Assembly (NCBI GenBank): GCA_016778895.1 | Contig: JADHOR010000018.1 | Location: 1 to 35,285 of the forward strand | Direction: 5' to 3' | DNA length: 35,285 nt | From: Candidatus Puniceispirillum sp. | GTDB taxonomy: Bacteria; Pseudomonadota; Alphaproteobacteria; Puniceispirillales; Puniceispirillaceae | Shown here: positions 3,379-14,905 of the stretch, in pieces | Layout: each line of letters begins with the position of its first letter | How positions within the stretch are numbered: the stretch's first letter is position 1 | Notes under the pieces: generated by a model | Told to the model about the DNA's origin: nothing | What the model saw: the letters and a program-made list of their open reading frames with translations, nothing else | The model's database searches: none | Position numbers and translations under genes: made by a program

Positions 3379-3455
3379 GGTCCCGTAGCTCATCAGGATA
3401 GAGCGACAGATTCCTAATCTGTAGGTAGCAAGTTCGAGTCTTGCCGGGATCACCA
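3379..3455 (+). tRNA. tRNA-Arg (anticodon CCT)
   Basis: The cloverleaf folds by eye. Acceptor GGTCCCG pairs with CGGGATC (one G-U pair), the D stem is GCTC/GAGC, and the anticodon stem ACAGA/TCTGT encloses the loop TTCCTAA with anticodon CCT. The variable loop is AGGTA, and the T arm GCAAG-TTCGAGT-CTTGC is intact. The discriminator is A and the 3' CCA is encoded. It reads AGG arginine codons. It stands alone between the helicase and the accessory block containing the ferredoxin and lig genes. Confidence 0.96.
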
Positions 3456-3554
3456 CAAGATCAAAATATGGCCTCAAATGTGGCCATGGAGAGAGGTGTA
3501 AGTGCCCAGCTGTTACTTATCGCTTGGATTTAGGATGGGGAAAGAGGCTTAAAA

Positions 3555-3875
3555 TTGAATGCTTTTGAGAAAATATTGACCGTATGTCGCAAGGATGAAG
3601 TTGTTGAGGGAACAGTAATACAAATAAAAAAAGGTGACCTTGATCTGGCAGTTTATTGTGTCGAGTCAATATACTACGTCACGGATAATTTGTGCACCCA
3701 TGGTGCGGGGTACATGAATGAGGGATATTTAGACGGGCACATAATTGAATGTGACTTCCATGGTGGCGCATTTGACATTCGTACTGGTGAAGTTGTGTCG
3801 CCGCCTTGTATGACACCCCTAAAAACATATCCGGTTTTAGATGATGTTGCTGAGGTTAAGATAAAAATTTCTTGA
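3555..3875 (+). CDS. Rieske [2Fe-2S] ferredoxin, oxygenase-component type
   Basis: Small soluble electron carrier of 106 aa. The Rieske cluster motif is complete: C47-T-H49 and, 16 residues later, C66-D-F-H69, followed by GGAFD. The length and the absence of a signal or membrane segment match the ferredoxins of ring-hydroxylating dioxygenases and some O-demethylases, not respiratory Rieske proteins. No oxygenase alpha subunit or reductase is adjacent, so the partner must be encoded elsewhere. Neighbours are tRNA-Arg upstream and ligK, convergent, downstream. The gene is clearly more AT-rich than the helicase and gcv genes, which may mean later acquisition. The start ATG has no strong ribosome site (GGGGAAAGAGG lies about 12 nt upstream). 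The family is confident; the link to the lig genes is inference. Confidence 0.85.
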   Translation: MNAFEKILTVCRKDEVVEGTVIQIKKGDLDLAVYCVESIYYVTDNLCTHGAGYMNEGYLDGHIIECDFHGGAFDIRTGEVVSPPCMTPLKTYPVLDDVAEVKIKIS

Positions 3876-4223
3876 TATGAGCTGCCTGGGAGGTTCTCAT
3901 CATTTGAGCTTTTTTCAATTTGAATATTGCTTTTGTTATCAAACGTAAAGATTGTGTCGTAGATTAGGTTAACTGAGGCGCTTTTTTGGATAAAGCTCCT
4001 GCATTGGTCTGCAGATTAACCGAAGCCTGCTCAGCGATGCTAGTCGGATCACCTACAAGTGAATTGTTCTTGGTCAATCTTTTGAAAAAGACGTTTTTGG
4101 CCTCCGCACAATCAGGGGCACAGCCAAGCGGTATCCCCGTTGGTGCCGCCCCAACAACAGTTTGTGAAAGTTTTACTTCAACCTATTTACTTTCACCGTA
4201 ACGGAGCTACGTAAACTTTTTTA
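3876..4223. other. Gene-free AT-rich gap with possible gene remnant
   Basis: This 348-nt gap separates the convergent ferredoxin and ligK genes. No convincing gene is present. On the minus strand a 70-codon frame with protein-like composition stays open from about 4177 to its stop near 3968, but it has an upstream stop and no start codon, so it may be a decayed gene end. On the plus strand only a TTG-started frame exists. No T-tracted terminator hairpin was found. Confidence 0.35.
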
Positions 4224-4958
4224 CTACCCCCGGTCCCGGTTTCGACAGTCAATTCCGTTGAACTCGACAAGGTCTTCAAGTGTATCGACATAGGTAAAAC
4301 CTGCGGCAGCCAACGCAGGGCGCATTTCATACAGATCAATGCCGAGCTCACCTGAGGCTAGTTTTATCCGCTTGCTATTTTCGTTTTCAATCCGCTCATT
4401 TGCATTAATCAGAACTGTACCAGCCTGTTTACGGCTAACAACGCAGACGCCATCATCATCAGCGACAATCACATCACCCGGAAATACCAATTGGCCAGCG
4501 CATATCACCGGCACATTCACCGCACCGAGGGTGTTTTTGACGGTGCCTTTTGATGAGATTGATCGAGACCAGACTGGAAAATCCATTGACTTTAAATCGG
4601 CTGCATCGCGTGTTCCACCGTCAATCACAAGCCCAAGAACACCATGCGCTTGCGCCGAGGTGGCAAGTAAGTCTCCAAAGAAACCGTCAGTATTGTCGGT
4701 CGTACAGGCTACCACCAAAACATCGCCCGGTTGACACATTTCAATTGCCACATGGATCATCCAATTATCGCCGGGCTGAGCTAACACAGTTACGGCGGTG
4801 CCGCCAATCCGTGCACCGGGGTAAACTGGACGGATATAGGGTTTAAGTAGGCCAATACGGCCTTGCGCCTCATGCACGGTTGAGACGCCGGCAATTCCAA
4901 GCCCGACGGCTGTTGCTGTATCGGTGCGGCTGATATTACGGACAGCGACAGTTTTCAT
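4224..4958 (-). CDS. ligK: 4-carboxy-4-hydroxy-2-oxoadipate aldolase (RraA-like fold)
   Basis: Class II, divalent-metal-dependent aldolase that splits 4-carboxy-4-hydroxy-2-oxoadipate into pyruvate and oxaloacetate, the last step of protocatechuate 4,5-cleavage; the family also cleaves 4-hydroxy-4-methyl-2-oxoglutarate. The 244-aa protein has the expected VHEAQGR near residue 28, [10 protein letters not shown] near 62, the GFFGDLLA segment near 92, and the R117-D118-x-x-D121 signature of the aldolase branch, followed by [14 protein letters not shown]. True RraA RNase E regulators and menaquinone methyltransferases are alternatives that the metal-site signature and the ligI/ligJ neighbours argue against. 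The ATG at 4958 has an AAGGATAAGG ribosome site just upstream. It is divergent from the cysQ-like gene across a 504-nt AT-rich gap. Cytoplasmic, normally a homohexamer. Confidence 0.88.
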
Positions 4959-5462
4959 TACCTTATCCTTATTTTTTTAGAGTTCTAGGTCATTGCCCTT
5001 TCATTATCGCGTCCATGAGACATGATGGCCAAAGTGAGCTAAACTCTCATCCCGCGGAAATTTACTTCAGCAAATATGTTTGCACAACAATCCATTTCAT
5101 TTGATGATAAGATAGGGCCACAAAATGTCATTTGCTCCCCAAAATGTTAACTTGACACAGTGTTTGGGCAGTTGATTGGACTAAGGAGACAGACCTGTAA
5201 GTCTAGGAATAAAAAATTATTTCAACTTAACTGAATATACTTTTTTGTGACCTTGAACGCGGCTCTTAGCGCTCTTTCCTTGTCACTCACTAACCCAATC
5301 GTATTTGAGTTCCGGCTGTGTGCCGTCAGAACATTTTGTTTCTGCGATACTTTGGGCTATCATAGTTTAATAATCTACTAACTATAGTTCATCGGTGTAG
5401 AACAAGCTTGAGGTAATCCCGATGTCAGTGGGTGATTAAAAACACGGAGATAATCATTCGCG
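4959..5462. other. Long divergent intergenic region, AT-rich
   Basis: This 504-nt gap lies between the divergent ligK and cysQ-like genes and should hold both promoters. No gene was found. Visible items are a TTGACA hexamer at 5152-5157 without a good -10 at the right distance, an AAGGAG at 5183-5188 not followed by a usable start, and the dyad described separately at 5362-5389. It is much more AT-rich than neighbouring coding DNA. Confidence 0.6.
5362..5389. promoter_or_regulatory. Candidate operator: ATAGTT-N12-AACTAT dyad
   Basis: ATAGTT at 5362-5367 and AACTAT at 5380-5385 form a perfect inverted repeat. The right arm extends into a perfect ten-base palindrome, AACTATAGTT, at 5380-5389. 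Three half-sites are thus packed within 28 bases, starting about 100 nt and ending 73 nt before the cysQ-like start. The layout fits a dimeric regulator of the divergent ligK/cysQ-like region. No regulator gene lies in the window, so function is inferred from symmetry and position only. Confidence 0.35.
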
Positions 5463-6251
5463 GTGACCAACAACTTGAGACAGAATGAAATGGATTACTC
5501 ACATCTTGCGAGGCAACTAATACGTCCGGTCGAAGAGGCTGGCCGAGTGATTATGAATATTTATTGCGGGCCTTCAACAATCAAGTTCAAGCCTGATGGC
5601 AGCCCAGTCACTGAGGCTGATCGGGCAGCTGAATCAATATTATTGCCGGCAATTGCTGCAGCTGCGCCAGCGATCTCAATTGTCTCTGAAGAAAACCCGG
5701 CGAGCCATGAATTCGTTGCGGGGTGTCAATTCTTCCTAGTGGATCCTCTTGATGGCACCAAGGAATTCATCAGAGCTGGTGGAGATGGTGCCTTCACTGT
5801 TAATATTGGTTTGGTGACCAAGGGCGTCCCAGTCATGGGCATTGTTTTTGCACCCGCATTAAACCGGTTGTTTTTTGGCAGCGCCAGTGGTGGAGCCTTT
5901 GAAATTTCTTCGGGGAACTGCCGGCCTATTGCGGTTCGTAAACCAGAACCTCGAGGTATTGTTGCTGTCGCCAGCGCATCCCATCGTGATTTAGCAACAA
6001 ATCAGTGGCTGGAAGATCGCGGAATTAAACAGATTGTCTCAATTGGTTCCTCCTTGAAATTTTGTCTGATTGCGGCGGGGGAGGCAGATGTTTACCCGAG
6101 ATACGGGCCAACTATGGAATGGGATACTGCAGCTGGTGATGCTATACTCCGCGCTGCTGGTGGCAATGTTTTGGCTGAAGATGGCTCGCCGTTACGCTAT
6201 GGGAAAAGTAATTATCGCAACGGACCTTTCTTTGCGTTTGGCGGCGGTTAA
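5463..6251 (+). CDS. Inositol-phosphatase family protein, CysQ-like 3'(2'),5'-bisphosphate nucleotidase
   Basis: Mg2+-dependent phosphatase of the inositol monophosphatase superfamily, 262 aa from a GTG. The metal-site motifs are all present: SEEN near residue 78, DPLDGTKEF near 97-105, and EWDTAAGDAILRAAGG near 220. DGTKEF is typical of CysQ, which hydrolyses 3'-phosphoadenosine 5'-phosphate in sulfur assimilation. No sulfur genes are nearby. Instead it lies between ligK and ligI, so a role on another phosphorylated substrate is possible. GGAG sits 13 nt before the GTG, which is rather far; an ATG at 5490 is an alternative start that would lose nine residues. No signal peptide. The family is confident, the substrate is not. 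Confidence 0.85.
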   Translation: MTNNLRQNEMDYSHLARQLIRPVEEAGRVIMNIYCGPSTIKFKPDGSPVTEADRAAESILLPAIAAAAPAISIVSEENPASHEFVAGCQFFLVDPLDGTKEFIRAGGDGAFTVNIGLVTKGVPVMGIVFAPALNRLFFGSASGGAFEISSGNCRPIAVRKPEPRGIVAVASASHRDLATNQWLEDRGIKQIVSIGSSLKFCLIAAGEADVYPRYGPTMEWDTAAGDAILRAAGGNVLAEDGSPLRYGKSNYRNGPFFAFGGG

Positions 6252-6320
6252 CAGGTTAACAAAAGAAATACTCAATTGCTCCTTGCTCAAAAAATCTAAG
6301 TATCAGCAACGTACATTTTG

Positions 6321-6345
6321 ATTGTTCTGAAACAATGTGTTTTTT
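6321..6345 (+). terminator. Possible intrinsic terminator after cysQ-like gene
   Basis: ATTGTT (6321-6326) and AACAAT (6331-6336) form a 6-bp stem with a CTGA loop, followed by GTG and a run of six T. The stem is AT-rich and so weak. Its position 70 nt after the stop suggests the cysQ-like gene and ligI are transcribed separately. Confidence 0.4.
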
Positions 6346-6473
6346 CTAATGTTAAAGGCTCGAAAACCAACAAAATCACAAAAGCATGATTTACATATTT
6401 GCCCATTCAACGGGCTCAATTGCGCCACATGAAAAAGGTCGCCTCAAGACGTTTTCGCCAGATTGGTATTGCT

Positions 6474-7379
6474 ATGACTGAATATATCCACCCTGTCATC
6501 GGTATGAAAAGTTGCATGGCGCCCGATCCGGATACGCGAATACCAGCCTTTAAGGCGCCAAAGGGCGCTTGCAACAGCCATTGTCATATCTTTGGGCCGC
6601 ATGAGATTTTTCCCTATCACCCGAAATCGACCTATCATCCGCCCGATGGTCCAAAAGAAAGTTTGGCCGCTCTTCACGTCAAGCTGGGCATTGATCGTGC
6701 GGTGATTGTGCAGGCAAGCTGTCATGGCCCCGATAATCGTGCGATGCTTGACGCGATTGCCGGGCGACCTGATGATTATCGTGGTGTGTGCATTGCCGAT
6801 GACAGTTTTTCCGACGAGGATTTTGCCGATCTCGATGCTGGCGGGGTACGCGGAATTAGGTTTAACTTTGTTACCCATCTTGGTGGCACGCCTGATTTGG
6901 CGATGATGCAGCGAGTGTTAGAGCGGATAAGGCCGCTGGGTTGGCATTTGGTGATCCATGTGAACGCCGAGGATATTTTGAGTTTTCAGGACTTCTTCCT
7001 GAAGTTTGACATGAACATAATTGTTGATCATATGGGCCGCGTACCAACAGCCGACGGCGTGCATCAACCGGCCTTCAAGATTTTGAAATCCTTTCTTGAG
7101 CGTGAGAATTGGTGGGTAAAAATTTGTGGTTGCGAACGTATTTCTTCAGCGGGGCCGCCATTCTATGATGCGGTTCCTTATGCGCAGGAACTCGTCGAAA
7201 TTGCCCCTGACCGTGTTTTATGGGGAACCGACTGGCCGCACCCAAACATCAAACGCCATATGCCAAATGATGGTGATTTGTTGGATCTGGTTCCGTTATT
7301 GGCGCGTGATGCGGCGTTACAGAAAAAAATTCTGGTGGATAATCCGGCCCGGCTTTATGGATTTACGCCGGTTGAGTAA
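6474..7379 (+). CDS. ligI: 2-pyrone-4,6-dicarboxylate lactonase
   Basis: Amidohydrolase-superfamily enzyme that opens 2-pyrone-4,6-dicarboxylate to 4-oxalomesaconate / 4-carboxy-2-hydroxymuconate in protocatechuate 4,5-cleavage. It has the H36-x-H38 pair in SHCHIFGP, VIVQASCHGPDN near 80, GGVRGIRFNF near 122, a His in HLVIHVNAE, IVDHMGR near 184, and the C-terminal WGTDWPHPN with the catalytic Asp. These are the LigI signatures, and the barrel has the expected size of 301 aa. The start is uncertain: the frame is open to a TTG at 6399, with ATGs at 6429 and 6474. The 6474 ATG is chosen because it gives family-like length; none has a good ribosome site. ligJ follows 157 nt downstream on the same strand. 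Confidence 0.9.
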   Translation: MTEYIHPVIGMKSCMAPDPDTRIPAFKAPKGACNSHCHIFGPHEIFPYHPKSTYHPPDGPKESLAALHVKLGIDRAVIVQASCHGPDNRAMLDAIAGRPDDYRGVCIADDSFSDEDFADLDAGGVRGIRFNFVTHLGGTPDLAMMQRVLERIRPLGWHLVIHVNAEDILSFQDFFLKFDMNIIVDHMGRVPTADGVHQPAFKILKSFLERENWWVKICGCERISSAGPPFYDAVPYAQELVEIAPDRVLWGTDWPHPNIKRHMPNDGDLLDLVPLLARDAALQKKILVDNPARLYGFTPVE

Positions 7380-7536
7380 TGGGGCGAGCAGCCGCGATGA
7401 AACAGGCCGTTTGCAGCGGTGGTTTTTTATTTTGGCTATTGGTTTCGCGCATTTGTTGTCCTAGGCCAACATTCTAACGTCTTAGGTCAGCGGACATGAC
7501 CAATATTTCGATATTTTTATTAGGGAAGATGCAACG

Positions 7537-8547
7537 ATGATTATTGATTGTCATGGCCATTACACAACTACGCCGCCACAGGTCGAGGCCTATCGTAACG
7601 AGCAGCGGGCATTGCTGGCGCATGACCCAAACCATCTTTTTACCAAGGGCGATGTGAAAATCTCGGATGATGAAATCCGCGAATCAATCGTCAATAATCA
7701 GCTTAAATTGCAACAGGATCGCGGGACTGATCTAACGATCTTTTCGCCGCGGGCTAGTTGGATGGGGCATGATCTTGGCAATGCCAGCACGTCGCAAGCA
7801 TGGACTGAGCTTTGTAATGATCTAATCCGGCGCGTCTGTGATCTGTTTCCAGATAATTTTGTTCCGGTTTGCCAATTGCCGCAAAGCCCCGAGACCTCGC
7901 TTGAAAATAGCATTGCCGAACTGTCGCGCTGTGTCGAGGAGATGGGCTTCATTGGTTGTAATCTCAACCCTGATCCCTCGGGTGGTTTTTGGAAGGATCC
8001 GCGTCTTGGTGACCGTTACTGGTATCCGTTTTATGAAAAAATGATCGAGCTGGATGTGCCCGCGATGATCCATGTGTCGGGGGCGTGCCAACATTCGCTT
8101 GATACGACATCGAGCTATTATCTTGGGGCTGACACAACCGCCTTTACCCAGCTGTTATTTTCTGACGTCTTCACGGATTTCCCTGAATTAAAGCTGATTA
8201 TCCCGCATGGCGGCGGTGCAGTTCCTTATCATTGGGGCAGGTTCCGCGGGATTGCACAGGATAGGGGCCTTGGTGATTTGGATGAACGGGTGCTTGGCAA
8301 TCTCTATTTTGACACGTGCGTCTATCACCAGCGCGGTATCGATCTGCTGCTGGATGTCATCCCGACGAAAAATATTCTGTTTGCCTCAGAAATGATCGGT
8401 GCGGTTCGCGGTATTGATCCCAGAACTGACCACCACTACGACGACACCAAGCGATATATCGATGGTAACAAGGCGCTGGATGCGGCGGCAAAGCAGGCTA
8501 TTTTTGAGGGAAATGCCCGGCGCGTCTTTAGCCGGCTCCAAATATGA
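7537..8547 (+). CDS. ligJ: 4-oxalomesaconate hydratase
   Basis: Zn-dependent amidohydrolase-fold hydratase that adds water to 4-oxalomesaconate, giving 4-carboxy-4-hydroxy-2-oxoadipate, the substrate of LigK. The 336-aa protein starts MIIDCHGHY, placing metal ligands at H6 and H8. H179 (in MIHVSGA) and E285 (in FASEM) fall within one residue of the metal and catalytic positions known for Sphingobium LigJ. Other family segments are PRASWMGHD, NPDPSGG and PHGGGAVPYHWGR. The ATG follows AGGGAAG by 8 nt. Related family members include amidohydrolase-type decarboxylases (gamma-resorcylate, ACMSD), but the ligI and ligK neighbours support the hydratase call. It forms the end of the accessory block; the next gene is convergent. 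Confidence 0.9.
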   Translation: MIIDCHGHYTTTPPQVEAYRNEQRALLAHDPNHLFTKGDVKISDDEIRESIVNNQLKLQQDRGTDLTIFSPRASWMGHDLGNASTSQAWTELCNDLIRRVCDLFPDNFVPVCQLPQSPETSLENSIAELSRCVEEMGFIGCNLNPDPSGGFWKDPRLGDRYWYPFYEKMIELDVPAMIHVSGACQHSLDTTSSYYLGADTTAFTQLLFSDVFTDFPELKLIIPHGGGAVPYHWGRFRGIAQDRGLGDLDERVLGNLYFDTCVYHQRGIDLLLDVIPTKNILFASEMIGAVRGIDPRTDHHYDDTKRYIDGNKALDAAAKQAIFEGNARRVFSRLQI

Positions 8548-8588: not shown

Positions 8589-8607
8589 AGCCTAATTCGG
8601 TTAGGCT
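8589..8607. terminator. Hairpin between convergent ligJ and SIS gene
   Basis: AGCCTAA (8589-8595) and TTAGGCT (8601-8607) form a perfect 7-bp stem around a five-base loop, overlapping the stop codon of the minus-strand SIS gene. Neither strand has a clean T run, but the minus strand continues CAAACCTTTATAA. It may act as a weak terminator between the two convergent genes. Confidence 0.35.
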
Positions 8608-9218
8608 TTGAAATAATGCGCCTCAAGCTGCCTGCAAATCTCGTGATAGATTGGCAAATGCAGTTCTTGAATGCGGGCAACATTGTCTGACGGCACGTCA
8701 ATCAGTACATCACATAATGGTGCCAGCTGGCCGCCACCAGCACCAGTTAGCCCAATCACCACCATGTTTCTGGCGCGTGCCGCCTTGGCACCAAGCAAAA
8801 CATTGCGCGAATTTCCAGATGTGGATATCGCCAATAAAACGTCACCAGCCTTGCCCAATGCCCAAATCTGCTGGGCAAAAATCAAATCACCATCAAGGTC
8901 ATTTGCAATTGCCGTGATCAGCGCGCTGTGGCTGACCAGCGACAATGCAGGCAATCCATATTGCAGCTTGTCCCCAAGAAGGGTGGCATCATCACCGCTA
9001 ACGGCGGCCAGTTTGTTCCTGTCATCGGCTGTTAAGGGGCGGCCAAGGCAAAACCCCTTCATCAATTCGCCGACGATATGCTCGCAATCCGCCGCACTGC
9101 CCCCATTGCCGCAAATCAGCAAAGTGCCGCTGGCATCATAGCTGGTAATCAGCTTTTCAACCGCTGCTTTCAGGCTGTCATGCTGGCTATTACCGTTATT
9201 TAGATCTGGCTGCTGCAT
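8601..9218 (-). CDS. gmhA: SIS-domain isomerase, GmhA-like (sedoheptulose 7-phosphate isomerase)
   Basis: Sugar isomerase of the GmhA/DiaA group, 205 aa from the ATG at 9218. GmhA converts sedoheptulose 7-phosphate to heptose 7-phosphate for lipopolysaccharide inner core. The SIS motifs are CGNGGSAADCEHIVGEL near residue 36, a middle AIANDLDGD segment, ISTSGNSRNVL near 132, and the C-terminal PSDNVARIQELHLPIYHEIC with the conserved Gln-Glu and His. An ATG four codons upstream (9230) exists, but the GGAG at 9225-9228 sits six bases before the 9218 ATG and favours the shorter form. DiaA, a DnaA-binding paralogue, is the main alternative. No other heptose genes are adjacent, so the specific substrate rests on sequence alone. 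Confidence 0.8.
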   Translation of the reverse strand: MQQPDLNNGNSQHDSLKAAVEKLITSYDASGTLLICGNGGSAADCEHIVGELMKGFCLGRPLTADDRNKLAAVSGDDATLLGDKLQYGLPALSLVSHSALITAIANDLDGDLIFAQQIWALGKAGDVLLAISTSGNSRNVLLGAKAARARNMVVIGLTGAGGGQLAPLCDVLIDVPSDNVARIQELHLPIYHEICRQLEAHYFKA

Positions 9219-9322
9219 CAGGCGCTCCATTATTTACTGGCACATATTTGTTGGCATAGTGACTGTGCAATGCCCCATTATCGAGTGGCGAGACGGAAAG
9301 CACAAATGATAAAATGGCTGCC

Positions 9323-10984: not shown

Positions 10985-11247
10985 GGCGGTCGGTCTCGTT
11001 GCAGGCGGCGTGCATAATATATCGACAAAAGCGCCCAAGTTAGGGATAGGTAACTGGGACGAACCCAACGCAAAATAATGCGAAAGAACTAGCACATATT
11101 TGCCGGACGGGCGATAGCTTTTTAAAGGGATGCCGACACGGCTAGTCGCTTGACCTGTCTATTGTCGATGCCTAGATTGAGCGCTGCATTATCGTCCTGT
11201 TGCGCTTAATCAGGCGCTGCTTTTTTTGTCTCTTTTCGAGGATAACG

Positions 11248-12054
11248 ATGACCCGACCCACAATCATCATGGCGGCACCGAACGGCGCACGCAAAGTGAA
11301 AATTGATCATCCCGCGGTGCCGGTGACGATTGACGAGACCATTGCCACTGCCAAGGAATGCCATGCAGCTGGTGCCAGCATCCTTCATGCTCATGTGCGC
11401 GATGATGCGGGCAAGCATCTGCTTGATGTGGCACGCTATCGCAAACTGCTTGATGGTTTGCGCCAAGAAGTGCCGGAAATGCTGGTGCAGATTACCACCG
11501 AAGCTGTGGGTATCTACACGCCGGATCAGCAGGCCGATCTGGTATTTGAGTTGAAACCTGATTTTGTCTCGGTCGGTTTTCGCGAAATGATCGGCGATAA
11601 TGGTGAGGCGGCGCGTGCGCTGGCCACAAATTTTTATCACCAAAGCCTGGCCGAGCAGATCTGTGTTCAGCATATTCTTTATGATGTTGATGATCTGGTT
11701 CGGTTCCGTGCTGCGATTGCCGACGGTATTTTGCCAGATGCGCGCCCGCACGTGCTTTTGGTATTGGGCCGTTATAGTGGAAATTTCCAGTCTGATCCGG
11801 CCGAGATGAAACCATTTATCGCTGATGGGCTGCCGGATATGGCAAGCTGGTCAATCTGTGCATTTGGTCACCGTGAATTTGATGTGATGACGGATGCGAT
11901 TGCGAATGGCGGTCATTGTCGGGTTGGGTTTGAAAATAACCTTTATTTGAAGGATGGCAGCCTTGCGTCGAGCAATGCCGATCTGGTGCGCCAGCTGGCC
12001 GAAACCTGTCAGCCAGCCAGCCGCGCCGATACTTTGGCACTATTCGCGCTCTAA
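11248..12054 (+). CDS. BKACE-family enzyme (DUF849, 3-keto-5-aminohexanoate cleavage enzyme type)
   Basis: Zn-dependent TIM-barrel enzyme of 268 aa. Members condense acetyl-CoA with a beta-keto acid and cleave it to acetoacetate plus a new CoA ester. Visible signatures are IIMAAPNGAR at the N terminus, the metal pair H47-x-H49 in ILHAHVRDDAG, and E229 in VGFENNLYLKDG; these correspond to the His, His and Glu metal ligands of the lysine-fermentation enzyme Kce. The N-terminal NGAR replaces the more common TGA/TP pattern, so this is a divergent subgroup whose keto-acid substrate cannot be predicted. The ATG at 11248 is preceded by CGAGGATAACG; an upstream frame to 11200 is likely not translated. 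It stands alone between divergent panB and convergent gcvP. Family secure, substrate unknown. Confidence 0.85.
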   Translation: MTRPTIIMAAPNGARKVKIDHPAVPVTIDETIATAKECHAAGASILHAHVRDDAGKHLLDVARYRKLLDGLRQEVPEMLVQITTEAVGIYTPDQQADLVFELKPDFVSVGFREMIGDNGEAARALATNFYHQSLAEQICVQHILYDVDDLVRFRAAIADGILPDARPHVLLVLGRYSGNFQSDPAEMKPFIADGLPDMASWSICAFGHREFDVMTDAIANGGHCRVGFENNLYLKDGSLASSNADLVRQLAETCQPASRADTLALFAL

Positions 12055-12076: not shown

Positions 12077-14905
12077 TTATTCCGCAGCCTGCTGCTCCCA
12101 AAATTCCATTGGCGGGCACGCACAAATTAAGGCACGGTCGCCAAGGGCATTATCAACGCGGTTTACCGGTGGCCAGTATTTATTAGCCTGGTAATTGCCG
12201 TCGGGATCACCGGCTTGCCTACGGCTGTAAGGATGCGTCCAGTCATCCACCATAATGTCGGTGGCGGTATGTGGGGCATTAACCAGCGGATTATCATTTT
12301 TAGGCCAGGCGCCATCGGCAACGGCACTGATTTCCGAGGCAATTGCAATCATCGCATCACAAAACCGGTCAATTTCGGCGCGTGATTCAGACTCGGTTGG
12401 TTCAATCATCAACGTGCCAGCAACCGGAAACGACATGGTTGGAGCATGAAACCCATAGTCAATCAGTCGTTTTGCGATGTCTTCATTGCTAATGCCGGTG
12501 GCATCCTGAATTTGCCGGATATCAATGATACATTCATGCGCAACGCGGCCATGGCGGCCGGTATATAGCAATGGATAGCTATCATTCAGCCGCGTGGCGA
12601 TATAATTAGCCGATAGAATGGCTGTTGCGGTGGCATCGAACAGCCCATTTGGTCCCATCATGCGGATATAGGCATAGGTAATCGGCAAAATGCCTGCCGA
12701 GCCAAACGGGGTAGCACTGACCGCACCGATCCCCCCAATTGGTGACCCTGGCAGAAATGGTGCCAAATGTGCTGCAACCCCGATCGGGCCAATGCCCGGG
12801 CCACCGCCACCATGCGGGATGCAAAAGGTTTTATGCAGGTTCAAATGGCTGACATCCGCGCCAAATTCCGGTGGCGCGCAATGCCCGACAAGCGCATTTA
12901 GGTTTGCACCATCGACATAAACCTGCCCGCCGGCAGCATGGATGATCGCACAAATATCGGCAATTGCCTCTTCAAACACGCCATGGGTCGACGGATAGGT
13001 CACCATCAAAGCGGCCAGATTTTTTGCATATTGGGCGGCCTTGGCACGCAGATCATCAAGATCAACATCCCCTGATGCGTCGCATTTCACCACAATAACC
13101 TTCATGCCGGCCATTGCCGCTGATGCTGGGTTGGTGCCATGTGCAGATGAGGGGATCAGGCAGATATTGCGATGATCATCGCCGCGCGACCGGTGATAGC
13201 GCGAAATCGCCAGCAAGCCGGCAAATTCGCCTTGCGCACCGGAATTTGGCTGTAGTGACATCGCTGCATAGCCGGTACATTGGCATAGCATCTCCTCCAG
13301 CCGTTCAATCATTTCGTGATAGCCAACAGTCTGATCATCTGGTGCAAAGGGATGGATATTGGCAAATTCCGGCCATGTAATCGGCATCATCTCGGCGGTG
13401 GCGTTCAGCTTCATTGTGCAAGACCCAAGCGGAATCATGCAGCGGTCCAGCGCCAGATCACGATCTGATAATCGGCGCATATAGCGCAGCATTTCAGTTT
13501 CTGAACGGTAGTTGTGAAACACTTCATGCGTCAGAAAACGGCTTGTCCGGCCAAGCTCGGCAGGCAGGCTATTCAGCTGATCATCGCCAAGGCTACCGCC
13601 AAGCGCAGTGATGATTCCCTTCAAAGCTGCATCGTCGATGGTCTCATCAAAACTTGCGGCTATGGCGCCATCAAGCGGGCGCAGATTAAACCCGGCGGCA
13701 ACGGCTGCAGCCATCAATTTATCGCGGTCCTGTGCCGCCTCAATGACCACAGTGTCAAAGAATGCCTGATGCCGCAGACTGCGGCCCGCATTAACCAAGG
13801 CAGCGGCAAAGCGGCGCGCCTGGCGGTTACTGTGCGCCGCAATATTCTGCAGACCTTCTGGTCCGTGCCAGACCGCATAAAAGCTTGACATAATCGCTAG
13901 CAATGCCTGTGCGGTGCAAATATTGGAAGTGGCCTTTTCGCGGCGAATATGCTGTTCACGCGTTTGCAGGGCGAGCCGATATGCTGGCCTGCCTCGTGCG
14001 TCGCGTGAGACTCCGACAAGCCGACCGGGGATCGCGCGTTGTAAAGGCTGGCTGCAGGCAAAATAGGCAGCATGAGGTCCGCCAAACCCAAACGGAACAC
14101 CAAAACGCTGGGCGCTGCCAACCACGATATCGGCACCCATTTCACCGGGCGGGGTCAGCAGGGTTAATGCCAACAAATCGGCAGAGACAACGACGAGCCC
14201 GCCACCTTCATGGATCGCGTCAATATCGTCGGTAAGGTCACGGATTGCACCGGTGCTGCTAGGATAGCTCAGGAGGCCACCAAAGCAATCTGCGGCGACT
14301 GGACGGTCAATCGCGCTGATATCAATGATGATGCCAAGCGGCTCGGCGCGGGTTTGCAAAATTGCAATGGTTTGCGGGTGTGTATCAGGGTCTACGATAA
14401 AACGGTTGCCCTTGGGTTTGTGCATCCGGTGCGCCAGCGCCATACCCTCGGCGGCAGCAGTGGCCTCATCAAGCAGTGATCCATTGGCAATATCCATTCC
14501 GGTCAGATCTATAATCATTGTCTGAAAATTCAAAATGGCTTCGAGCCGCCCTTGCGATATTTCCGGCTGATAGGGCGTATAGGCCGTATACCATGCCGGG
14601 TTTTCCAGAATATTACGCTGGATTACTGGCGGCGTGTGGCAATTGTAATAGCCCATCCCAATCAACGAGGTTTTGATTTGATTCTTGCTGGCAAACCCCT
14701 TCAACTCGTCCAGAGTTTCATGTTCCGATAATGCCGGTTGCAACGCCATTTTGCTCTGACGCCGGATATTTTGGGGGATCACCATATCCAGTAATTCGGT
14801 CAATGACGAGACACCGACGGTATCAATCATCGCGTCAATATCAGCGTCATCAAGGCCGATGTGACGGCTGGAAAAGGCAGCTTGCGGGGGAGGTAGTGGT
14901 AACAT
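12077..14905 (-). CDS. gcvP: Glycine dehydrogenase (aminomethyl-transferring), P protein
   Basis: PLP enzyme that decarboxylates glycine and loads the aminomethyl group on the lipoyl arm of GcvH. At 942 aa it is the long, fused form with both N and C halves, not the split gcvPA/gcvPB. The N terminus carries FSSRHIG and the C-terminal half carries [17 protein letters not shown], with the PLP lysine at residue 692. The [10 protein letters not shown] and PNSGAQGE segments are also present. The ATG at 14905 follows AAAGGA by 6 nt; an in-frame TTG at 14920 is less likely. It is the last gene of gcvT-gcvH-gcvP, 118 nt after gcvH, and under the upstream glycine riboswitch. No L protein (lpd) is in the window. 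Identification is secure. Confidence 0.98.

Follow-up and report, generated by a model that had tools for sequence, protein, structure and literature searches.

A reduced protocatechuate 4,5-cleavage locus beside tRNA-Arg in Candidatus Puniceispirillum: probable deletion remnant and candidate scavenging route

Introduction

What use has a bacterium for the last enzymes of an aromatic pathway whose ring-cleaving enzymes it does not appear to encode? The question is raised by contig JADHOR010000018.1 of assembly GCA_016778895.1, from Candidatus Puniceispirillum sp., whose 35,285 nucleotides, all of them analysed here, are called the window. At 3379–8547 of the window, genes for LigK, LigI and LigJ of the protocatechuate 4,5-cleavage pathway stand beside a tRNA-Arg gene. 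An initial annotation, made from the sequence, had noted that LigAB and LigC were absent and had proposed an acquired or rearranged pathway, or a scavenging route. We consider it probable, at roughly 0.7, that the block is a deletion remnant of a 4-hydroxybenzoate/protocatechuate 4,5-cleavage locus, the remainder of which scavenges 2-pyrone-4,6-dicarboxylate (PDC) or oxalomesaconate.

In the lower part of the pathway, PDC is hydrolysed by LigI to oxalomesaconate, which is tautomerised, hydrated by LigJ and cleaved by LigK to pyruvate and oxaloacetate. Judged from the titles listed for LigU/tautomerase, LigI, PDC transport or uptake, SAR116 islands and gene loss, nothing was seen in the literature on a lower pathway free of ring cleavage. 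Gene names and functions of the pathway follow passages of PMC12997858 and PMC8431788, and the sections of PMC8125074 bearing on SAR116/Puniceispirillum and protocatechuate do not describe such a locus.

Results

A short locus at a variable site

The window is contig C52 of a genome (G000) of 2.17 Mb (2,173,558 bases) in 61 contigs, with a completeness of 99.63% and a contamination of 0.41%. In two other members of the genus, G020 and G026, the borders of the block enclose a far larger catabolic island. The features of the block and its borders are as follows.

3379–3455, + strand: tRNA-Arg (anticodon CCT), left border of the variable site (ARAGORN)
3555–3875, + strand: Rieske-type ferredoxin gene, apparent leftover of the island's upstream part (profile matches; homologue at G020 L187:13346-13646, 78% DNA identity)
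3994–4201, − strand: 5′ fragment of pobA (4-hydroxybenzoate 3-monooxygenase) with its leader (comparison with G020)
4224–4958, − strand: ligK, 4-carboxy-4-hydroxy-2-oxoadipate (CHA) aldolase, intact (NCBIfam, solved relative, divergence)
4985–5002, − strand: scrap of the 3′ end of ligC (comparison with G020)
5013–5132, − strand: former ligA leader/promoter region, ends approximate; core at 5062–5110, 84% identical to G020
5463–6251, + strand: cysQ, 3′(2′),5′-bisphosphate nucleotidase (NCBIfam), which adjoins ligJ in several genus members
6474–7379, + strand: ligI, PDC hydrolase (reading frame open from 6399; start at 6474 set by homology)
7537–8547, + strand: ligJ, 4-oxalomesaconate (KCH) hydratase (solved relatives)
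8601–9230, − strand: SIS-domain gene, phosphoheptose isomerase-like (below NCBIfam cut-offs), conserved right border (profiles, synteny)

The distance from tRNA-Arg to the SIS gene is 57.8 kb in G020, 48.7 kb in G026 and 5.1 kb in the window; it is shorter still in G029 (2.2 kb) and G017 (2.0 kb), where CysQ and LigJ lie within it. The same two genes occupy the site in G027, 1.9 kb as measured from the second of two tRNA-Arg(cct) genes, with the part between these two genes unread. A tRNA-Arg(cct) gene stands at the corresponding place in all five relatives. The genes of the G020 stretch (L188) run TctC, TctA, PobA(−), LigK(−), LigC(−), LigB(−), LigA(−) and a thiamine diphosphate (ThDP) enzyme(−), followed by a binding-protein-like gene, two class II aldolases, AroE, CysQ, a second binding-protein-like gene(−), LigI and LigJ. 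Four of these names lie above profile cut-offs (PobA, TIGR02360, 589 bits; LigA, TIGR02792, 119 bits; LigB, NF009903, 415 bits; AroE, NF001312, 330 bits); TctC, TctA, the ThDP enzyme and the aldolase were named by Pfam, and LigC by its PF01408 and PF19858 domains and its position. PobA and LigA were detected in G026 too, and in both genomes LigK, LigB, CysQ, LigI and LigJ are ordered as in the window remnant. The initial idea of a rearranged pathway is borne out by this comparison of flanks, in which the site varies and the block appears as the deletion leftovers of a fuller locus that two genus members keep in place. In G029 (L194:5922), synteny with the window stops inside gcvP (window position 12236), of which only the 3′ end was found there.

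Profile and solved-relative matches agree with the initial naming of LigK, LigI and LigJ, which had not listed the ferredoxin gene or cysQ. LigK scored 342.3 bits against TIGR02798 (NCBIfam cut-off 304.5), with 3noj as its closest solved relative. The top solved relatives of LigI were PDC hydrolase entries (4.4e-64), and its only NCBIfam match was a sub-threshold one to 4-sulfomuconolactone hydrolase (258 of 500 bits). For LigJ they were 4-oxalomesaconate hydratases (1.6e-137 over residues 1–335), and its nearest named relative among the best 80 of 585 matches was an uncultured Candidatus Puniceispirillum metagenome-assembled genome (96%). The CysQ-type phosphatase between LigK and LigI reached 257.5 bits against TIGR01331 (cut-off 228.8).

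LigI agrees with the Sphingobium SYK-6 enzyme at 12 of 14 compared positions, whose roles we take as assumed, and differs at 130 and 156. A reading of LigI as a different enzyme found no support, the two changes being present in all 34 rows of at least 60% identity (20 distinct sequences; two rows are the window's own gene). In the 40–49% band, 45 of 48 rows carry the SYK-6 residues at both positions.

Scraps of interrupted genes at the cuts

Two scraps mark places where genes have been interrupted. That of pobA aligns with G020 over 194 bases at 66.5% DNA identity and keeps about 60 of 391 codons, its start codon gone and one further codon missing. Its frame is open over 72 codons with no internal stop, and its amino acid identity to G020 is 44%, against 89% between G020 and G026 over the same stretch. 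The scrap of ligC lies upstream of ligK and consists of five sense codons followed by a stop at the place of the last codon in G020; it runs into the former ligA leader, which now sits ahead of ligK. Judging from these alignments, the window has lost ligA and ligB entirely and all but the tip of ligC. It is the window that keeps the scraps of the interrupted genes, which identifies the pobA and ligABC cuts as deletions in the window genome. Further cuts fall between the tRNA and the ferredoxin gene, between the latter and the pobA scrap, between the ligA leader and cysQ (5.8 kb in G020) and between cysQ and ligI (1.3 kb in G020), and these too were probably deletions here. Among the loci compared, the ligA-leader element has matches in the ligA leaders of G020 and G026 and nowhere else, and no convincing copy was seen ahead of other genes in the window.

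Ring-cleaving genes in the rest of the genome

To our knowledge, the known gallate and protocatechuate 4,5-dioxygenases are PF02900 proteins. No match to this LigB-type family was found in the window genome at E ≤ 1, and thus no LigAB; as a control, the same search gave matches in 4 of 14 named genomes. Intradiol dioxygenases (PF00775) were likewise not found in this genome at E ≤ 0.001. When the 10,057-base pobA-ligK-ligC-ligB-ligA-aroE stretch of G020 was compared with the window genome (40 of 47 first-look candidates scored), the sole match at E ≤ 1e-5 was window 3994–5003. LigC, the 4-carboxy-2-hydroxymuconate-6-semialdehyde dehydrogenase, was found at the DNA level only as the ligC tip in that interval, no protein-level search having been made. 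As far as these searches reach, ring cleavage has been lost from the window genome, in agreement with what the initial annotation had noted from the window for LigAB and, within the limit just given, for LigC.

Constraint on the remaining genes and the rest of the route

Pairwise dN/dS (the ratio of nonsynonymous, dN, to synonymous divergence, dS) between the window genome and G020 is 0.086 for ligK, 0.069 for ligI and 0.018 for ligJ, with dN of 0.060, 0.029 and 0.007; between G020 and G026, which kept the pathway, the ratios are 0.143, 0.061 and 0.039. For the pobA scrap against G020, dN/dS is 0.40 and dN 0.45, as opposed to 0.05 and 0.06 for the same stretch between G020 and G026; against G026 the ratio is 0.23, at a saturated dS of 2.1. 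These values indicate that ligK, ligI and ligJ are under purifying selection, and the remainder looks functional.

An oxalomesaconate tautomerase is encoded on another contig (G000:C61:6099-7178; NF033377, 462.8 bits, cut-off 440), adjoining two MFS transporters. With it, the genome has genes for each of the four steps that turn PDC into pyruvate and oxaloacetate. The tautomerase locus includes LigK in G029, G016 and G023, and is without it in the window genome, G020, G025 and G017. A ligK remnant in the window genome's tautomerase locus was sought and rejected, the best match being 41 bases to the spacer beside the G029 ligK. As to an importer of PDC or oxalomesaconate, our guess would be a tricarboxylate transporter (TctA, with four matches in the genome) or the two MFS proteins, as candidates only. 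A second PrpF-family protein (G000:C29:10762-13531), 41% identical to the tautomerase, adjoins a TctA transporter gene.

Divergence, composition and mobility

Between the window genome and G020, dS of ligI (0.42) and ligJ (0.37) is like that of the flanking SIS gene (0.22) and panC (0.42); it is 0.70 for ligK, 0.90 for cysQ and 1.44 for the ferredoxin gene. When G020 is set against G026, dS is 0.03–0.24 for the five island genes examined and about 1.0 for the SIS and panC flanks, a sign that all or much of the island has passed between the two lineages; the exception is the pobA 5′ stretch, with a dS of 1.13. On these values the window genome seems to hold an older version of the island's left part than G020 does.

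Composition was sampled over 325,842 of the 2,173,558 bases (starts of 20 of the 61 contigs, half-overlapping windows). The block has a GC content of 0.474, against 0.504 for the genome (standard deviation 0.027, 92 windows of 5.1 kb), and 8.7% of these windows are as low; in tetranucleotide usage 13% lie as far out as the block, and 7.3% as far as 3456–6355 alone. The deviation for which a check had been proposed is therefore present but mild, and foreign composition was dropped as evidence. The AT-rich start noted initially is likewise real (GC 0.456 at 3456–6455) but mild, as 8.4% of 190 windows of 3 kb are as low. By part, ligK, ligI and ligJ have GC of 0.504–0.516 and cysQ 0.498, the spacers 0.369–0.465 and the ferredoxin gene 0.405.

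As the initial annotation had also stated, the window holds no second copy of the tRNA-Arg end, such as an integrative island would show, and no phage integrase was found among the 26 window proteins scanned against Pfam, short open reading frames lying outside the scan. G020 has an integrase gene (PF00589, 33 bits, cut-off 27; L208:7278-8701, equal to G020:1794278-1795701). It adjoins a partial copy of tRNA-Arg (3′ part) and has 38 bases of the tRNA 5′ half on its other side, the integrase and tRNA fragment copy lying about 9 kb downstream. The G020 stretch thus looks, in part, like a mobile element, and this element seems to bring its own tRNA-Arg(cct), splitting the original tRNA gene. G026 probably carries no such element, given the length of its stretch and its intact tRNA.

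LigJ without ring cleavage in other genomes

Among 16 genomes of the genus, LigJ was found in 10 at E ≤ 1e-40, the G019 copy being split across contig ends. PF02900 accompanies it in two, G020 and G026, and not in the other eight (G000, G016, G017, G018, G019, G025, G027 and G029). Of these eight, G016, G017, G018 and G027 are only 72–81% complete and G019 has a contig end near ligK, so that the firm cases are G000, G025 and G029 (98–99.6% complete). G024, where LigJ was not found, matches PF02900 weakly (89 bits). Across the class, 290 genomes of 95% completeness or more were sampled, and LigJ was found in 15 of them at E ≤ 1e-100, a set that does not include G025 and G029; 14 of the 15 have PF02900, a family broader than the protocatechuate dioxygenases and matched at only 127 bits in G136, and the sole exception is the window genome.

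In G025, ligJ (L200:10398-11408) separates XdhC/CoxI- and MobA-like genes from a MatE transporter gene, and that genome yielded neither a close LigI or LigK nor a PF02900 match. A contig labelled Acidimicrobiaceae (L003, NZNH01000055.1), possibly a binning error, carries ligI-ligK-ligJ at 73–81% to the window's genes. Elsewhere in the window, a BKACE enzyme (PF05853) is encoded at 11200–12054, between panB and gcvP; its match to 3-oxoadipate:acetyl-CoA acetyltransferase lies under the cut-off (141 of 350 bits).

Discussion

The comparisons suggest that deletion, not recent acquisition, mainly explains the block. In an ancestor within the SAR116 group (Puniceispirillum-like alphaproteobacteria), the space from tRNA-Arg(CCT) to the SIS gene would have been filled by a catabolic island resembling those of G020 (58 kb) and G026 (49 kb), and some five deletions would have shrunk it to 5.1 kb. 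One of these would have taken ligA, ligB and nearly all of ligC out of a ligABCK run and put the ligA leader before ligK. With this leader ahead of it ligK probably still has a promoter, and we would guess that it is expressed from there. LigI, LigJ and LigK, together with the tautomerase encoded elsewhere, would then form a full route from PDC to pyruvate and oxaloacetate without known ring opening, and the cell may import PDC or oxalomesaconate released by other microbes as a carbon source. Given the continued constraint on the genes and a tautomerase that makes the route complete, scavenging, as proposed initially, is the most likely function and the best functional reading, as a prediction from the gene content.

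The same constraint bears on a different outcome of the same loss, namely that the remainder is functionless and vanishing and that its intact genes reflect how recent the loss was. The scraps are erosion of that kind, the pobA frame, still open over 72 codons, would allow a loss that is not old, and some genus members that keep LigJ have no close LigK. Against this, the pobA scrap has a far higher dN to G020 than the three lig genes, yet its cut may predate that of ligABC; LigJ and the tautomerase, moreover, persist in several genomes without LigB. Such decay we regard as unlikely, and about equally so another pathway, served by the remaining enzymes, in which oxalomesaconate is made inside the cell by a dioxygenase that escaped recognition or by some other source. 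That LigJ and the tautomerase are kept in members without close LigI, LigB and in part LigK would fit such a source, as would the departure of LigI from the SYK-6 enzyme, but the changes at 130 and 156 also occur in genes within full lig clusters, and PF02900, the family of the known 4,5-dioxygenases, was not found in the genome.

That a mobile element put a foreign block beside tRNA-Arg appears quite improbable. In its favour, G020 shows that the tRNA serves as an integration site, a second tRNA-Arg(cct) is present in G027, and the near identity of the G020 and G026 island genes between more diverged flanks speaks for exchange within the genus; the higher dS of ligK, cysQ and the ferredoxin gene also counts against setting acquisition aside. 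However, the window shows no tRNA-end copy and no integrase among its 26 scanned proteins, the lig genes have the GC of the genome, ligI and ligJ have diverged like the flanks, and CysQ and LigJ are found at this site also in members that lack the island, so that the initial suggestion of an acquired pathway gains no support. An assembly that simply dropped the ring-cleaving genes is hardly credible: the genome is in 61 contigs, but the window is a single one, the diverged scraps at the cuts are unlike products of misassembly, and PF02900 was not found at 99.6% completeness.

Several points weigh against a deletion remnant turned scavenging route as the whole account. The substrate, transporter and expression of the route are predictions from sequence. 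Pairwise dN/dS blends the time before and after the loss, and that of ligI is slightly higher here than the value between G020 and G026; a pobA scrap with so long an open frame need not have drifted long, and the pobA and ligABC cuts may differ in age. A close LigI is lacking from the genus members that have LigJ but not the island, and in G025 and G017 a close LigK is lacking too, so that one shared PDC route does not fit all of them. The mosaic of dS (about 0.4 for ligI and ligJ, 0.7–1.4 for ligK, cysQ and the ferredoxin gene) means that the history involves more than simple vertical loss. More tentatively, and with the odds somewhat against it, the genus as a whole may have a dedicated scavenging module, made up of tautomerase and LigJ and, in some species, also of LigK and LigI, that acts on leaked ring-opened tricarboxylates; the switch from degrader to scavenger would here have been fixed by the deletion that placed ligK behind the ligA leader.

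Should the route prove functional, seawater would hold PDC and related ring-opened acids as shared goods, and this bacterium would have switched from an aromatic degrader to a user of leaked intermediates. The scraps indicate how the loss happened, and G020, with its full pathway, offers a natural control. For genome annotation there is a warning: the presence of LigI, LigJ and LigK is no proof of aromatic ring cleavage.

Known protocatechuate 4,5-cleavage systems include ligABCIUJK of Sphingobium SYK-6, pmd of Comamonas and the fld, pcm and pca clusters. Like the SYK-6-type pathway, the window genome encodes LigI, LigJ, LigK and a LigU/GalD-type tautomerase; unlike it, LigA, LigB and LigC were not found, the tautomerase lies on another contig and ligK stands behind a former ligA leader. 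With the aromatic catabolic island of G020 and G026 the window shares the site, the borders and the order of the remaining genes, whereas it spans about a tenth of their length and has pobA and ligC as scraps only. The LigK-MFS-MFS-tautomerase locus of G029 and G016 has its counterpart on C61, except that in the window genome LigK is missing there and sits instead in the tRNA-Arg block.

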